Assembly (NCBI RefSeq): GCF_000223215.1
Contig: NC_017243.1
Span: 2,356,001 to 2,420,000, forward strand
DNA from: Brachyspira intermedia PWS/A
GTDB lineage: Bacteria; Spirochaetota; Brachyspiria; Brachyspirales; Brachyspiraceae
Direction of reading: 5' to 3'
Length of the DNA: 64,000 nucleotides
Program-made: the position numbers and the translations under genes
Shown: positions 13,601 through 61,835 of the stretch, piece after piece
Layout of the letters: every line of letters starts with the position of its first letter
Numbering within the stretch: the first letter of the stretch is position 1
Notes under the pieces: generated by a model
Databases searched by the model: none
Told to the model about the DNA's origin: nothing
What the model saw: only the letters and a program-made list of their open reading frames with translations

Positions 13601-14915
13601 TAATGAATATAGCTTTCATATCCTGTCCGCCTATATCAAGTATAAAGCTGACATCTTTATCGAAAGCCTTAGCACCTCTGTAATGTGCCATAGTTTCAAC
13701 GATACCCTCGTCCATATTGAAAGCGGCTTTTATTAAATCCTCTCCATAACCTGTAACGGCAGTTCTTGCTATATTGATTTTTATATTTTTCTCATCTAAT
13801 TCTTTTTTAATCTCTGTAAGTCCTTCAGTAACAGCACCAACAGGATTACCATTATTGTTTCTATAATGTCTTAATACTACCTGTCCGTCCTCATCAATAA
13901 TAACGATTTTTGTAGTAGTAGAACCAGAGTCTATTCCTAAGAATGTATTTTTACCATTAACAGTTGATACATCAGCAGATCTTACTTTATCTTTGCTATG
14001 CTCTTCTGTCCATTCTTTGTATTCTTCCTGACTTGTAAATAAAGCTTCTCTTGTTTTTGAATTAGTGATTTTTACTTCTGCTGAAATATTTTCTACTAAT
14101 TTATATAATTCAGAAACTTTTATTGTAGTTTGTTCCTCTTTTTCACCGAAAGCTGCACCTATTGCTGCAGTTAATTCTGGGTGGTCTACTGTATACATAT
14201 CATCTTCTGAAGCATTAAGAAGAGCCAAGAATGTTTTTCTTAATTCAGGAAGGAATGTTAAAGGTCCGCCTGTAAATAATATTTTAGGCTTAATCTCGAA
14301 ACCTTTAGCCAAAGTATTAACTGTTTGAACAGCAACAGCTTGGAATATACTTTTAGCAATATCAGCTTTAGGTATATCACGGCTTATAAGAGTTTGAACA
14401 TCTGTTTTAGCGAATACTCCGCATCTGCTTGCCATAGGATATATAGAAGTAGATTTTTCAGCTAATACAGAAAGTTCTGAAGGCTGAACATTAAGAAGTG
14501 TAGCCATCTGGTCTATGAATGCTCCTGTACCGCCTGCACAGTTACCATTCATTCTTATATCCGCTTTGAAATTATCATCAAATACTATGATTTTAGCATC
14601 CTCTCCGCCTATATCTATCAAAGTTCTTCCATAAGGATAAATCTTTCTGATAGCTGTTGAAGAAGCAATTACCTCTTGAATGAAACTAATACCTGTTTTT
14701 TCGCAGACACCCATTCCTGCTGTACCTGTCATAGCAAGAGAAAGTTTTAAATCTCCATGCATAGCTTGTAAATTATCAAGTATAGACAATAATGTATCCT
14801 TTACATCAGCGTTATGTCTGACATAAGTTTTGAATATCATATTGTCATTATCATATACAACCATCTTTGCGGTAGTTGAACCAATGTCAATACCTGCTTT
14901 GAAAATTTTTTCCAT
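10611..14915 (-). CDS. acyl-CoA dehydratase activase-related protein (BcrAD/BadFG ATPase, fused multi-domain)
   Basis: 1434 residues with two ASKHA ATPase domains in series. The first begins GIDIGSTTAKMVVYD near residue 8 and has IDIGGEDAKI, NGNCAGGTGAFIDQ and SRCGVFAKTD. The second begins FLGIDSGSTTTKIVIID near 325 and has DIGGQDMKAIF, CSSGCGSFIE and SRCTVFMNS. The paired cysteines match those that hold the bridging [4Fe-4S] cluster in 2-hydroxyglutaryl-CoA dehydratase activator. A DUF2229-like cysteine-rich section (CKGCENLC) and an HgdB-like region (NQDICYPATIV) follow. Related activators drive ATP-dependent one-electron reduction; the substrate of these long fusions is not established. 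AGGAGAG precedes the ATG. It follows the aspartate-decarboxylase-like gene by 29 bases, probably as one transcript. Confidence 0.88.
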   Translation of the reverse strand: MEKIFKAGIDIGSTTAKMVVYDNDNMIFKTYVRHNADVKDTLLSILDNLQAMHGDLKLSLAMTGTAGMGVCEKTGISFIQEVIASSTAIRKIYPYGRTLIDIGGEDAKIIVFDDNFKADIRMNGNCAGGTGAFIDQMATLLNVQPSELSVLAEKSTSIYPMASRCGVFAKTDVQTLISRDIPKADIAKSIFQAVAVQTVNTLAKGFEIKPKILFTGGPLTFLPELRKTFLALLNASEDDMYTVDHPELTAAIGAAFGEKEEQTTIKVSELYKLVENISAEVKITNSKTREALFTSQEEYKEWTEEHSKDKVRSADVSTVNGKNTFLGIDSGSTTTKIVIIDEDGQVVLRHYRNNNGNPVGAVTEGLTEIKKELDEKNIKINIARTAVTGYGEDLIKAAFNMDEGIVETMAHYRGAKAFDKDVSFILDIGGQDMKAIFIKDGIIENIEINEACSSGCGSFIETFARGMGYKVADFANIACESARPCDLGSRCTVFMNSKVKQSLREGSSVADISAGLAKSVTLNCFTKVLKITDTSILGDHIVVQGGTFKNAAVLRSVEKFLDKKVIRPDISELMGAYGCALLALDTYNAKEEDTTFIGLDNLQEANDYERKQLTCKGCENLCTVTRLKFKDNKSFYTGNKCERIFTNKGNKERNYGMDITQKKLSLLFDRPLAPASDEIKGTIGIPRVLNMYQNFPFWATILVECGYRVQLSSPSSMAIAEKGSGTVMSDNICFPAKIANGHIYDLIESKVDRIFYPSVVLEKAEDDGSVNSYNCPVVTGYPDVIDSSISPLTKYGIPFDAPTISFLNEDLLYKGCKAYFVKVLGINKKDFDRAFKMALKEQVRIKEELRAEGKKIIEHAKETQTPTILIVSRPYHIDPLINHKIPETIASFGINVITEDGLDIDESLADVQVLTQWSYPNKMFKAALWACKQKDMKLEVVQINSFGCGPDATTSDEIKSILNAYGKSPTLVKVDEISSPGSIRLRIRSMIESMKMKGDFTPSEESNRTIIKRYEKNDRRAILVPKFGHFYDPMILTLLERSGYDTIPLPEPDVESVELGLRYANQDICYPATIVIGDIIRAVQSGKYDPKNIAAGITQTGGQCRASNYASLIKRGLINAGYPDVPVVTVGLTVINDQPGFELSKMDLMKEGIIAMPYADAISTMYYYCAAREVKKGESLALANKYIALHPKDFALKPTDKLLKQAIAEFNAIETNDNLMLPKAGLVGEIYVKYNSFANGDVCDWLMAKGVEVIVPPVFDFFVQKVISEQVNKETNARDVSFLGYYGSKISEKVIDMRIDSINQMMSKFKGFRPAHHIRQIAENAAKVTAMTNQFGEAWLLPGEIATFAEEGVNNVLCLQPFGCIANHIIARGIETRLKTRYPDLNLLYLDMDAGASEVNTVNRLEFFVRSAKDSMNTAANINYVKESIGEYAK

Positions 14916-14944
14916 AATATCTCTCCTAAAAGTAAACTATTTAT

Positions 14945-15295
14945 TTATTCCAGTATCATATTGTACGTATTAACAAATATTATTTTAGTTTTATGATTCT
15001 TTATATTTTCCTCCGGTATATGTCCGTAGGAAAGAACTATTATAGTATCATCTTTTTTAGCATAGTGAACATTGTCGCCATTGATGCCTATAATACCAGT
15101 ACCCCTTATTCCTTTAACAACTTCAGTTTCAAAGCGAATATCATTACTCAAATTAATAACAGATACCCTCTCCCCGTCCATTATATCCGATTTATCGAGT
15201 AAGGCTTCATCTATTGTTATTGAATCTCTAAAATTTAAATCCGTCCTTGTAACTGTAAGTCTATTTATCTTGGATTTTATGACACTTCTCATCAT
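14945..15295 (-). CDS. panD: aspartate 1-decarboxylase-like protein (divergent PanD)
   Basis: 116 residues aligning without gaps to pyruvoyl-dependent aspartate decarboxylase, which makes beta-alanine for pantothenate. Conserved are K9, S25 (source of the pyruvoyl group), T57, R54 in RFET, N72, and the start MMRSVIKSKINRLTVT. Odd are D24 in place of the usual glycine before the cleavage serine (RDSITID rather than GSxTID), E58 in place of the catalytic tyrosine, and GDNVHY where most have GAAAR. So self-cleavage or decarboxylation may be altered. No panB or panC lies nearby. It is upstream of the activase in the same direction. The family call is firm; activity is uncertain. Confidence 0.75.
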   Translation of the reverse strand: MMRSVIKSKINRLTVTRTDLNFRDSITIDEALLDKSDIMDGERVSVINLSNDIRFETEVVKGIRGTGIIGINGDNVHYAKKDDTIIVLSYGHIPEENIKNHKTKIIFVNTYNMILE

Positions 15296-15442
15296 ATATT
15301 AAAATCCATATAGTCTATTTTTTTACAAATATTTTACTTATTATATTAGAAAATGTCAATATTACAAATTTAAATATTTATTAATAATGGTTATTATATA
15401 CTAGGCAAATTTTTATTATAATTATACATATTATACGTATAA

Positions 15443-29424: not shown

Positions 29425-30132
29425 TTATAGACTATAAGAAAACTCTAATATAGCATAAGTTTTATTATCTTCACTGTCAAACTTTAATAAAACTTTATCA
29501 TCAATTACAGCTTTCTTTACAACAATAGTATCGCCTAAAGCAGCAGGCACTCTGTATTCTATTCTTATTCTTTTATAATAATCATCAACATAATCTATTG
29601 CCATATCAATATATCTGGCATTATTAACATGATTATTATCATCTATAAAATATTTTTTTACTTTGAATCTATCAACTTCTTTTAATAAATTATTATCAAC
29701 TTTTATTTTTCTAGGTAAATAATTCATTTCCTGCTTCTCATCAAATTTGAAATTTTCTATAAATGATGAAGGCACTCTAATCAAATTACCATTAGATAAA
29801 TCTACAAATCCGCCTATAGCATAGCAAATAGCAAGCTCATTATAATTTTCATCGTATATAACAGTATTTCTATAACCATAAGCCTCATTACATTCATAAA
29901 CATAAGTACGTACTATAACTTTATCGCTATATTTTGGAAGTTTGTATATATCAACTTGCCTAGACACCAAAAACATACTCACATTGTTTTCATTAAAATA
30001 TTTTGTAAGATCTTCTTCTGAATCTAATTGAAAAAAAGAACAGTCCTGCATAAGATCAAATATTGATGATGTTTTCAAAAGTCCGTCTTTATCAATCTGA
30101 CTTGTTCCTACAATTGTTTTCATTTCATACAT
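29425..30132 (-). CDS. acyl-ACP thioesterase
   Basis: 235-residue double hot-dog protein of the FatA/FatB-like acyl-ACP thioesterase family (PF01643). The second hot-dog carries DDNNHVNNARYIDM, with the asparagine/histidine catalytic pair, and the first has SMFLVSRQVDIYKLPKYSD. It would release free fatty acids from acyl carrier protein. AAAAGG precedes the ATG at 30132. Upstream is the large non-coding palindrome. Confidence 0.85.
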   Translation of the reverse strand: MYEMKTIVGTSQIDKDGLLKTSSIFDLMQDCSFFQLDSEEDLTKYFNENNVSMFLVSRQVDIYKLPKYSDKVIVRTYVYECNEAYGYRNTVIYDENYNELAICYAIGGFVDLSNGNLIRVPSSFIENFKFDEKQEMNYLPRKIKVDNNLLKEVDRFKVKKYFIDDNNHVNNARYIDMAIDYVDDYYKRIRIEYRVPAALGDTIVVKKAVIDDKVLLKFDSEDNKTYAILEFSYSL

Positions 30133-30230
30133 AAATAATACCTTTTCTTAAATTTAATTAATATAATTCAAATATTATAATACTAAAATTATAATTGTCA
30201 AAGCTATCAAATCATAACACTTTCATATAT

Positions 30231-30655
30231 ACCGCACGGTTAGCTGATTTCTTATATAATAAAAATTCTATTATTTAATATGCTAACTTTATATATTAAA
30301 ATTTAATCGTGCGTTGATACTGCTTTAAATTTAAAAAACTCTAGGGTGGGAATCTATAATTCATATTTAAATTATAAAAATGAATAAAACTATAAAATCA
30401 AAATAAATCATTAAATATTAAGGGTGGGAGTGAAATTAAAATTTAAAATCTACTTACATACCCCGCCCTTTAGATTTATAGATTAACTTAATATTTTAAC
30501 TATATTTATCTTTATTAATTTACAAAGAAAAAAGAAACCCCACCCAAGTTTTGATTAGATTGAATGATAAATTCACCGCACGATTAATATTATTTTTATA
30601 ATTAATAAAATTAAAAAATGAACTATTTTAAATTATTAGCTTTATTTACCGTGCG
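30231..30655. repeat. nested ~425-bp imperfect palindrome (non-coding)
   Basis: Most of the 539-base gap before the thioesterase gene. GC cores stand in mirror order: CGCACG 30233 with CGTGCG 30650; CGTGCG 30308 with CGCACG 30577; GGGTGGG 30344 with CCCACCC 30539; GGGTGGG 30422 with CCCGCCC 30462. All four pairs centre on 30444-30445 and the spacings match to within two bases, while the AT-rich spacers have diverged. It resembles a miniature inverted-repeat element or a large regulatory RNA fold. No reading frame of note. Confidence 0.75.
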
Positions 30656-30671
30656 ATTTAGAAATAAAAAA

Positions 30672-31385
30672 TTATAAAATAACTCCAAGAGTAAGCATTC
30701 TTCCTACCTGAACACCATCACGTCTATAAGAATAACAAATATCATCATAAGTATTTATACTAGAAATCTCAATATTATTTTCTAAGATACCGCATTCAAT
30801 CATCTGGTCTTTAATCTCTAAACCATTATCAATATACCATTTATCATCAATCATAGCTTTATTTTTGAAATGAATAGCCACTTCATCACCAACTTCATAA
30901 TCTTTTTGAGCTATATAAGGTCCTATATAAGCATACATTTTTGAAGGATTGGCATTATATTCTTTTTTCATTAAATCTATAGTTTTTGAGGTAATATTCT
31001 GAACAGTTCCTCTCCAACCAGAATGTATTGCCGCCATAGACTTACTTTCATCGCAATAAAGTATTATAGGTGCACAATCAGCTGTTTGAACTATTAAAGG
31101 AATGTTTTTAAGATTCGTTATCAAAGCATCAGTATCTTTAACTAATTTTTCTCGGCTTCCAAATAAATGAATGTTAGATTCATCTATTTTAATTATATTG
31201 TCCTTATGAACTTGATGCATAAAGATAGCTTTGTTTATATCAAAATTAATATATTTAAAAAAATCTTTTTCAGCGTTTTCTCTACATTCTAAAGTTATAT
31301 CATGAGCATTAATATTTCCTTTAGACAATATAGCTATATATATTTTTTTATTATCATTTTTAGATGGATAAAAAATATTATTCAT
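30672..31385 (-). CDS. pgeF: polyphenol oxidase/PgeF family protein (multicopper-like, YfiH)
   Basis: 237 residues of the YfiH/LACC1 family, implicated in peptidoglycan editing and purine nucleoside phosphorolysis. The zinc/copper-site motifs are present: HQVHKDNI, TADCAPIILYC, AIHSGWRGTV, and CYSYRRDG near the end. Eight bases overlap the upstream coiled-coil gene, indicating translational coupling. Confidence 0.9.
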   Translation of the reverse strand: MNNIFYPSKNDNKKIYIAILSKGNINAHDITLECRENAEKDFFKYINFDINKAIFMHQVHKDNIIKIDESNIHLFGSREKLVKDTDALITNLKNIPLIVQTADCAPIILYCDESKSMAAIHSGWRGTVQNITSKTIDLMKKEYNANPSKMYAYIGPYIAQKDYEVGDEVAIHFKNKAMIDDKWYIDNGLEIKDQMIECGILENNIEISSINTYDDICYSYRRDGVQVGRMLTLGVIL

Positions 31386-60021: not shown

Positions 60022-60786
60022 ATGTCTAAAGTTATAGCTATAGTCAATCAAAAAGGCGGAGTAGGAAAAACTACCACAGCCGTTAATTTAAGTGCATGCA
60101 TAGCAAAAATGGGTCATAAAACACTTCTTATAGATATAGACCCTCAGGCTAATGCTTGTTTAGGTGTTGGCGTTACAAGAGAACAAATGCAAAAAAGCGT
60201 ATACGATATATTAATAGGACAAGCTGAAGCAAAAGAAGTAATAATACCTACATATCAGGAGAATTTATTTCTAATACCGGCAGATTCCGACTTGGTTGGT
60301 GCTCAAATAGAACTTGTTAATGAAATAGCTAGAGAATATAAATTAAAAAAGGCTGTAGAAACTGTAAAAAATGACTATGAATATATTATTATAGACTGCC
60401 CTCCTACTTTGGGTATATTAACACTTAATGCTTTAACTGCTGCTGATTCTGTTCTTATACCTATACAATGTGAGTTTTATGCTTTAGACGGTGTTGCTGA
60501 ACTTAATAACACAATAGCACTTGTAAAAGAAAATCTTAATAAAGAATTAAAAATAGAGGGTGTTCTACTCACTATGTATGATGCTAGAACAAAATTAGCT
60601 TCAGATGTAGTAAAAGAAGTAGTAAATTTCTTTAAAGAAAAGACTTACAAAACTATGATACCTAGAAATGTACGTTTAAGCGAAGCACCTTCCTATGGTA
60701 AAGCTATAGGGGATTATGATAAAGATTGTGTGGGAGCTAGAAGTTATAAAGAATTTGCAAAAGAGTTTGTTGAAAAATCTAAATAA
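60022..60786 (+). CDS. parA: chromosome partitioning ATPase ParA/Soj
   Basis: 254 residues. Deviant Walker A NQKGGVGKTTTAVNLSACIA, DIDPQANACLGVG, IDCPPTLGILTLNAL and the basic C-terminal SEAPSYGKAI region are classical. It drives segregation with ParB. AAGGA precedes the ATG. Followed by parB after 83 bases. Confidence 0.95.
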   Translation: MSKVIAIVNQKGGVGKTTTAVNLSACIAKMGHKTLLIDIDPQANACLGVGVTREQMQKSVYDILIGQAEAKEVIIPTYQENLFLIPADSDLVGAQIELVNEIAREYKLKKAVETVKNDYEYIIIDCPPTLGILTLNALTAADSVLIPIQCEFYALDGVAELNNTIALVKENLNKELKIEGVLLTMYDARTKLASDVVKEVVNFFKEKTYKTMIPRNVRLSEAPSYGKAIGDYDKDCVGARSYKEFAKEFVEKSK

Positions 60787-60869
60787 TGAGTATTTTTAAT
60801 ATAATAATGCTATTGTATTGATAATATTATTTAAAAATATATTAATTAAATAAAATTAAGAGGGTTTAT

Positions 60870-61835
60870 ATGAGCAGAAAAGGCGGACTTGGCGGTCAGG
60901 GTTTAAGTGCATTAATAAAATCTACTGACAATGAAATAAGAACAGCAGCCGAAGAGGCAGAAAGAAGAGGAGTATTGGAAATAGATGTTTCTCTTATAGA
61001 TGTTAATCCGGATCAGCCTAGAAAAGTATTCAATGAAGAAGAAATACAAGGTCTTGCCGAATCTATAAAAGAAAATGGACTCATAAACCCTATTACTTTA
61101 AGAGAAAAAGACGGAAAATACCAAATAATATCCGGAGAAAGAAGATTCAGAGCATTTAAATTCTTGAACAGGGATAGAGTTCCAGCATTGGTATTAGAAA
61201 ATATAGCAGATTCTAAAATGCTTGAGCTTACTTTAGTTGAAAACATACAAAGGGCGGATTTAAATGCCATAGAAGTTGCTAGAAGCTATAAAAAATTAAT
61301 ATATGATTTGAATATTAAACAAGAAGAATTAGCAAACAGAGTTGGAAAAAGCAGAAGCACAATATCTAATTCTATGCGTATACTAGATTTAAGCGAAAAT
61401 ATACAAAATTTAGTATTAGAATCCAAAATAACAGAAGGACATGCCAGAACTATATTATCATTAGATGACGAGAATGAAAGAGAAGAATTTGCTAAAGAAA
61501 TAGTAGAAAAAGGATATTCTGTAAGAGAATGCGAGAGAATAGTAAAAGAAAGAAAAAATAATATATCAAATGATTCTAATACAAATAATAATGAAGAAAA
61601 TACAGAAAATCAAAACGAAGTAAAAAAAGATAATAAGAAAGACCCTAATATAAAAAAGCTAGAAAATGATTTAGAAAAAATATTCTCTACCAAAGTTAAT
61701 GTTATAGATAAAAATGGGAAAGAGGGTAAAATAGTAATAGAATATTACAGTTCTGATGATTTATCAAGAATAATGGATATGCTTGAAAAAGTATATGAAA
61801 GAGAAACAGGAATAAAACCTACTCTTGAATATTAG
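60870..61835 (+). CDS. parB: chromosome partitioning protein ParB/Spo0J
   Basis: 321 residues. N-terminal CTPase/ParB domain (NPDQPRKVFNEEEIQGLAES, GERRFRAFKFL box), helix-turn-helix (QEELANRVGKSRSTISNSM) and a C-terminal dimer domain after an Asn/Glu-rich linker (about 225-265). It binds parS sites; I saw no TGTTTCACGTGAAACA-like site in the window. GAGGG precedes the ATG. Eight bases separate it from the next gene. Confidence 0.95.
   Translation: MSRKGGLGGQGLSALIKSTDNEIRTAAEEAERRGVLEIDVSLIDVNPDQPRKVFNEEEIQGLAESIKENGLINPITLREKDGKYQIISGERRFRAFKFLNRDRVPALVLENIADSKMLELTLVENIQRADLNAIEVARSYKKLIYDLNIKQEELANRVGKSRSTISNSMRILDLSENIQNLVLESKITEGHARTILSLDDENEREEFAKEIVEKGYSVRECERIVKERKNNISNDSNTNNNEENTENQNEVKKDNKKDPNIKKLENDLEKIFSTKVNVIDKNGKEGKIVIEYYSSDDLSRIMDMLEKVYERETGIKPTLEY

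Follow-up and report, generated by a model that had tools for sequence, protein, structure and literature searches.

Positions 30233 to 30655 of the window, the whole 64,000-nucleotide stretch of the Brachyspira intermedia PWS/A chromosome that was analysed, hold an array of eight G+C cores in mirror order. The array lies between two genes read from the minus strand, and the features of the locus are as follows.

29425 to 30132, minus strand: acyl-ACP thioesterase gene (domain matches PF01643 and PF20791)
30201 to 30174, minus strand: TTGACA-16-TATAAT promoter-like pair, read by eye, between the array and the thioesterase gene
30233 to 30313, no strand assigned: left A module, CGCACG (30233-30238), 69 bp, CGTGCG (30308-30313); orthologous copies exist
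30344 to 30428, plus strand: B module, GGGTGGG (30344-30350), 71 bp, GGGTGGG (30422-30428), the core being repeated directly
30429 to 30461, no strand assigned: spacer at the B-B' centre, 33 bp (mode in the family, 35-36)
30462 to 30545, minus strand: B' module, CCCGCCC (30462-30468), 70 bp, CCCACCC (30539-30545)
30577 to 30655, no strand assigned: right A module, CGCACG (30577-30582), 67 bp, CGTGCG (30650-30655)
30672 to 31385, minus strand: gene for a Cu-oxidase_4/YfiH-type protein (PF02578), with about 17 bp between its stop and the array

B' is the B module in the opposite orientation, with an inner core of the C type, and CGCACGGT forms the outer arm of both A modules. Successive cores start 75, 36, 78, 40, 77, 38, and 73 bp apart, which gives the mirror pairs 75/73, 36/38, and 78/77; the 36/38 pair corresponds to spacers of 30 and 31 bp, the difference arising from cores of 6 and 7 bp. 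A preliminary description of this DNA had reported four core pairs in mirror order with equal spacing (75 vs 73, 37 vs 37, and 77 vs 77). The core pairs are real and the spacing is right to one or two bases. Compared with shuffled sequence, the array is strongly enriched in these cores: CGCACG occurs five times in the 64-kb window, four of them inside the array (expected 0.77), CGCACGRTTA three times, all inside (expected 0.01), and GGGTGGG four times, three of them inside (expected 0.37). The description had also called the array a nested palindrome; the mirror order stands, but the palindrome is not a strict one, since the facing inner cores, GGGTGGG and CCCGCCC, put T opposite G.

The window array is one member of a mosaic repeat family confined to Brachyspira, with about 100 intergenic arrays in the B. 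intermedia genome. In that genome (3,308,048 bp in two contigs) the pattern CGCACGN{50,80}CGTGCG is found at 131 places, and the reversed-pattern control at none; these 131 A modules make up 105 loci. A DNA search of the genome returned 99 matching places, the last ones at chance level. Module A can be written as CGCACG-68-CGTGCG and module B as GGGYGGG-71-GGGYGGG, with direct cores. Over 400 kb that were mapped, the lattice reads, start to start, A (74), 36, forward B (78), 43, reverse B' (78), 38, A (74), and this A-B-B'-A order recurs about every 347 bp in stretch after stretch. The array forms seen were A-B, B'-A, B'-A-B, B-B', A-B-B'-A, which is the form in the window, and longer ones. 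From copy to copy, spacer length changes by just a few bp: when gaps of 20-140 bp were searched in B. intermedia, 129 of 135 A modules had a gap of 66-71 bp and 171 of 174 B modules one of 67-73 bp. The gap modes were much the same at loci of named Brachyspira and in a further genome of the genus (G007), with slightly more B outliers. Free A ends favour the CGCACGGT terminus, which is found on 64 of 110 free arms and on 42 of 148 arms facing B, while some arrays end beyond B. At one locus the arrays of B. intermedia and G007 differ in length by 349 bp, one whole period.

Several variants of this architecture were seen. In another genome of the genus, G010, tandem half arrays at C1:2494111-2495553 have a different period (about 233 bp), with several copies in one orientation, and at 3058856 and 3061610 of the B. 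intermedia chromosome there are short overlapping GGG-core clusters with 4-bp spacing and no A modules. The B spacers of B. intermedia show an AA/TT periodicity of 9 bp (power 0.678 vs 0.320 in the control) that is absent from the A modules; phasing of A-tracts near 10.5 bp was also considered and dropped, its power in the spacers being not above control. Modules with T and C as the fourth core base do not form separate B subfamilies, as similarity between interiors is about the same (0.552 vs 0.542), and the module allows the type to be predicted in part (AUC 0.75-0.78).

The preliminary description proposed that selection holds the cores only, and suggested looking for the core order in other Brachyspira genomes and for core conservation in orthologous gaps. 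The same order of cores is present in 23-24 of the 26 genomes of the genus, and the cores are conserved in orthologous gaps. At the site of the window array, full or near-full arrays occupy the orthologous gap in several species and shortened ones in others, and the gap is coreless in two (G017 and G019) of the 17 genomes that have both flanking genes. Both flanks could be located in G007 for 40 of 120 B. intermedia arrays, within the 400 kb sampled; 31 of these 40 syntenic gaps keep at least two cores, one keeps a single core and eight have none, so that individual arrays are dispensable. Among the 13 of these 40 pairs that were of similar length, changes affect 8 of 492 core sites (1.6%, fourth base excluded), 12 of 52 fourth bases, and 549 of 3759 spacer sites (15%). 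A gene-anchored comparison (9 array gaps and 49 control gaps out of 99 orthologous gaps) gave 4.5% change in cores including the fourth base, 14.0% in spacers, 10.0% outside the arrays, and 11.1% in array-free control gaps. Gap columns in the same comparison numbered 1.8 per 100 sites in spacers and 7.2 in control gaps, in a test that required most cores to be kept and so favours low indel counts. The cores thus bear the mark of purifying selection looked for in origin-domain protein-binding arrays, and spacer lengths are constrained as well, while spacer sequence drifts at or above the ordinary intergenic rate. Of the earlier proposal, the conservation of the cores is upheld and the word "only" is not.

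The arrays have polarity. Inner cores that face each other combine a GGGTGGG with a GGGCGGG in 37 of 39 cases in B. intermedia, in 14 of 15 in G007, and in 54 of 62 in named Brachyspira; two T-type or two C-type cores, which would make a true palindrome, are avoided. This heterotypic arrangement indicates that the arrays are polar and not true palindromes. A modules with two GT arms are likewise rare (4 seen vs 21.8 expected), and polarity markers agree along an array at 0.650, against 0.407 in shuffles (shuffle maximum 0.521), again indicating polarity. Replication-strand polarity was rejected, the association with the leading strand being weak (50 of 80 arrays, Fisher p 0.043; 83 arrays were scored and 3 ties left out), and no association was found between array polarity and gene strand.

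One reading offered at the outset was a structured RNA, to which a cruciform-forming palindrome can be joined. Shuffled sequences do fold far less well than either strand of the array (z -5.97 and -5.66), and such values are expected of any palindrome with G+C cores and follow from these cores alone. Complementarity between arms is no greater inside one copy than among different copies, either in the A modules (oriented z -1.54, unoriented z -5.55) or at the B-B' centre (oriented z -2.51, unoriented z -2.83), which also speaks against hairpin units of the REP/BIME type. The covariance analysis that had been suggested, made on seven orthologues, gave an unfavourable covariation term of +1.11 kcal/mol, and compensatory changes were seen in 3 of 83 pairs. 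Watson-Crick partners are avoided where fourth bases face each other, and there is no Rfam match within the window. With no link to gene strand and with convergent gaps used equally, the RNA reading is contradicted, and RNA or cruciform formation is very improbable. G-quadruplexes formed by the B modules are equally improbable. Two GGGYGGG cores, directly oriented on one strand, would supply the four G3 tracts, Y serving as a one-base loop, and 348 of 356 core positions indeed carry T or C as the fourth base. The central loop of about 71 nt would be very long and its length is tightly kept, the spacing scale is the same in the A modules, which lack G tracts, and a T/C pairing rule across opposite strands is not expected of such structures.

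The description also proposed a MITE-type element. In a wider form this is the main rival explanation: a mobile or formerly mobile intergenic repeat, of MITE, REP, BIME, or BOX likeness, would have been spread long ago by a transposase acting at the CGCACG ends, and its copies would now decay and recombine, the plasticity of the origin region accounting for their crowding there. The high copy number, the mosaic of modules, the restriction to one genus, the inverted ends with a preferred terminus, and the presence and absence differences between species all agree with such a history, and the available text of a paper on B. pilosicoli states that genes at oriC vary extensively between species (PMC3532143). 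Against it, no target-site duplication borders the window array (30225-30230 reads ATATAT and 30656-30661 ATTTAG), duplications at 13 full arrays and at 11 A modules standing alone did not exceed those in shuffled flanks, and boundaries vary by module. Y1_Tnp/RAYT, the only transposase family searched, matched in none of the 26 genomes of the genus and in 5 of 14 control genomes. No array match was found in plasmid and phage collections; a viral origin was discarded, as the 31 viral-contig matches have 54-90% G+C and look like chance. Decaying copies should not hold their cores at 1.6% change with spacers at 15%. A decayed mobile repeat would therefore account for copy number and mosaicism, not for the selective pattern, and we regard it as unlikely, though it deserves to be kept in view.

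The distribution of the family is narrow. A modules occur in 24 of the 26 genomes of the genus, with 27-146 copies in 23 of them, two in G019, and none in G001 and G003. The half array CGTGCG-30-GGGYGGG-71-GGGYGGG was found in 23 of 296 Spirochaetota genomes, all of this genus, and was absent from the other 270 Spirochaetota genomes and from G001, G003, and G019. A direct DNA search of these three genomes gave short weak matches only, and G010 gave clear ones. With no or almost no copies in three of its genomes, the family is not essential to the genus. A scan of the genomes of 84,980 species gave at least 120 matches, and the 80 matches listed were all from Brachyspira. No published account of such a Brachyspira repeat family was found in the literature open without subscription, and the available portions of PMC2897892, PMC2650404, PMC3532143, and PMC3163572 contain no mention of one.

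All 57 arrays with at least three cores avoid every ORF of 80 aa or more, and a coding remnant is ruled out by this and by the frame-breaking variation in length. The 52 of these arrays for which both neighbours could be used lie in 20 convergent, 20 tandem, and 12 divergent gaps. These figures bear on a further alternative, that the arrays are regulatory sites activating or silencing neighbouring promoters from upstream. Their strictly intergenic location and the position of the window array just upstream of the promoter-like pair of the thioesterase gene would suit this role. A promoter is not expected in the convergent gaps that hold 20 of the 52 arrays, array polarity shows no association with gene strand, and the origin-centred gradient described below would be left unexplained, which makes a regulatory role distinctly unlikely. 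The proximity to the acyl-ACP thioesterase gene, to which the description had tied the element, is incidental, as arrays adjoin unrelated genes throughout the origin-proximal chromosome.

The position of the arrays on the chromosome is far from uniform. The circular mean of the 105 B. intermedia loci falls at 3,285,662 (R 0.593). The published genome has its origin at position 1 by skew, unlinked to dnaA (PMC3163572, available text), and the available text of PMC3532143 likewise gives an origin not linked to dnaA. Third-position skew agrees with this origin in B. intermedia, as does the skew of the closed genome G009. An origin at dnaA, which would put the arrays at the terminus, is overturned by the third-position skew, the published statements, and the parS-like pairs. 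These parS-like sites were called with TGTTNCACGTGNAACA as the parS consensus, most of them with one mismatch. Paired sites lie at 14.7-15.3 kb in B. intermedia, 1.676 Mb in G004, 1.593 Mb in G009, and 1.883 Mb in G010; further one-mismatch hits occur elsewhere, two in B. intermedia and one in G009. The distance from the centre of the arrays to the parS-like sites is 34 kb in B. intermedia, 41 kb in G004, and 81 kb in G009. Binned by distance from these sites in tenths of the genome, the counts are 61, 22, 8, 10, and 4 in B. intermedia, 33, 14, 5, 4, and 1 in G004 (drawn from the 61 half-array hits of the forward strand), and 18, 4, 5, 0, and 0 in G009, and none of 20000 random sets was equally concentrated in any of the three. 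In G010 (closed, 28 loci) clustering around parS was not significant, 1995 of 20000 random sets being as concentrated, so that origin-centring is not universal. The sites are thus concentrated on one chromosome domain in three of the four closed genomes tested (B. intermedia, G004, G009, and G010). Gaps carry arrays in 42 of 167 cases near the origin, 1 of 24 at middle distance, and 1 of 58 far from it, and gap density is similar near and far; availability of gaps therefore does not explain the gradient. The window array, about 930 kb from the parS-like sites, belongs to the sparse part.

The arrays are not parS centromeres, as 32 kb of array contain CACGTG twice and parS half-sites once; DnaA boxes, of which there are three in 32 kb of array, show no enrichment. 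Between the two parS-like sites of B. intermedia (14726-15331, in an rsmI/tonB-like gap, the genes named by eye) lies a single isolated A module carrying an unusual GGGGTGGGAGGGCGGGC block, and G004 is arranged similarly. An A module between the parS-like sites is present in G000 and G004 and absent in G009 and G010, and no general link between arrays and parS is therefore claimed. The window itself carries, roughly 0.9 Mb from the parS-like sites, a parA-parB operon at 60022-61835 (ParB_N match, chromosome position 2,416,972). With dnaA at 1.33 Mb, the dnaA gene, parAB, and the skew origin are in three separate places.

Some features of the family recall known repeats and binding sites. BIME/REP elements of enterobacteria and others are extragenic mosaics of high copy number with reported protein binding (PMC2817692, available text). 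The Brachyspira arrays share with them the extragenic mosaic of short units, the alternating orientation, the regular spacing, and the high copy number; they differ in showing no selection for hairpins, in having units of about 80 bp bounded by cores, in their centring on the origin, and in belonging to a genus without a Y1/RAYT transposase. The BOX elements of Streptococcus pneumoniae are similarly modular intergenic repeats of narrow host range and variable module number; they are not known to keep distant cores at a strict spacing or to show a gradient around the origin. In Bacillus subtilis the ram sites form an origin-proximal cluster that is bound by RacA and anchors the origin. The Brachyspira sites also cluster near the origin, but as about 100 long arrays of fixed geometry. 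Sites for Noc or SlmA, and matS, are dispersed short single sites, many in number, with a chromosome-scale gradient. The gradient and the number of dispersed sites are common to the Brachyspira arrays, which differ in not being short single sites. Noc is a ParB-like protein and would thus be a second one of its kind; each of the six genomes searched has one ParB_N match only, which makes the Brachyspira case unlike that of Noc.

The constrained cores and spacing, the independence from hairpin formation and gene orientation, and the gradient around the origin point to a docking array on duplex DNA for a putative protein that would organise or anchor the origin-proximal chromosome. We give this reading an even chance, and among the three offered by the preliminary description it is the protein-binding array that is favoured. 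The cores would be contact points of a sequence-specific protein, or of a small set of proteins, held at fixed positions on the duplex along a lattice of about 38 bp; within a single 347-bp period, cores would fall at lattice units 0, 2, 3, 5, 6, 8, and 9. Arrays of DNA and protein formed in this way may organise, condense, or anchor the chromosome near oriC and parS, by analogy with ram/RacA, Noc, and MatP/matS elsewhere. Arrays would grow or shrink by recombination between repeats, one whole period of 347-349 bp at a time, and would otherwise be inherited in place. A more specific version, possible but tentative, is that Brachyspira has an origin-domain organiser of its own, in which about 100 phased, polar nucleoprotein arrays, graded around parS and bound by a putative factor, give shape to, compact, or tether the half of the chromosome nearest the origin. 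We know of no described counterpart of such an organiser in spirochaetes.

Little is known of how spirochaete chromosomes are organised, and the Brachyspira genome papers, as far as their available text goes, place the origin by skew or dnaA and not by experiment. A repeat family with selected cores and spacing, and with its density peak at parS-like sites, provides a handle on both organisation and origin, and the array gradient supports the skew origin over dnaA. Because they change by whole periods of about 347 bp, the arrays could serve as strain markers, and they are a ready bait for the putative binding protein.
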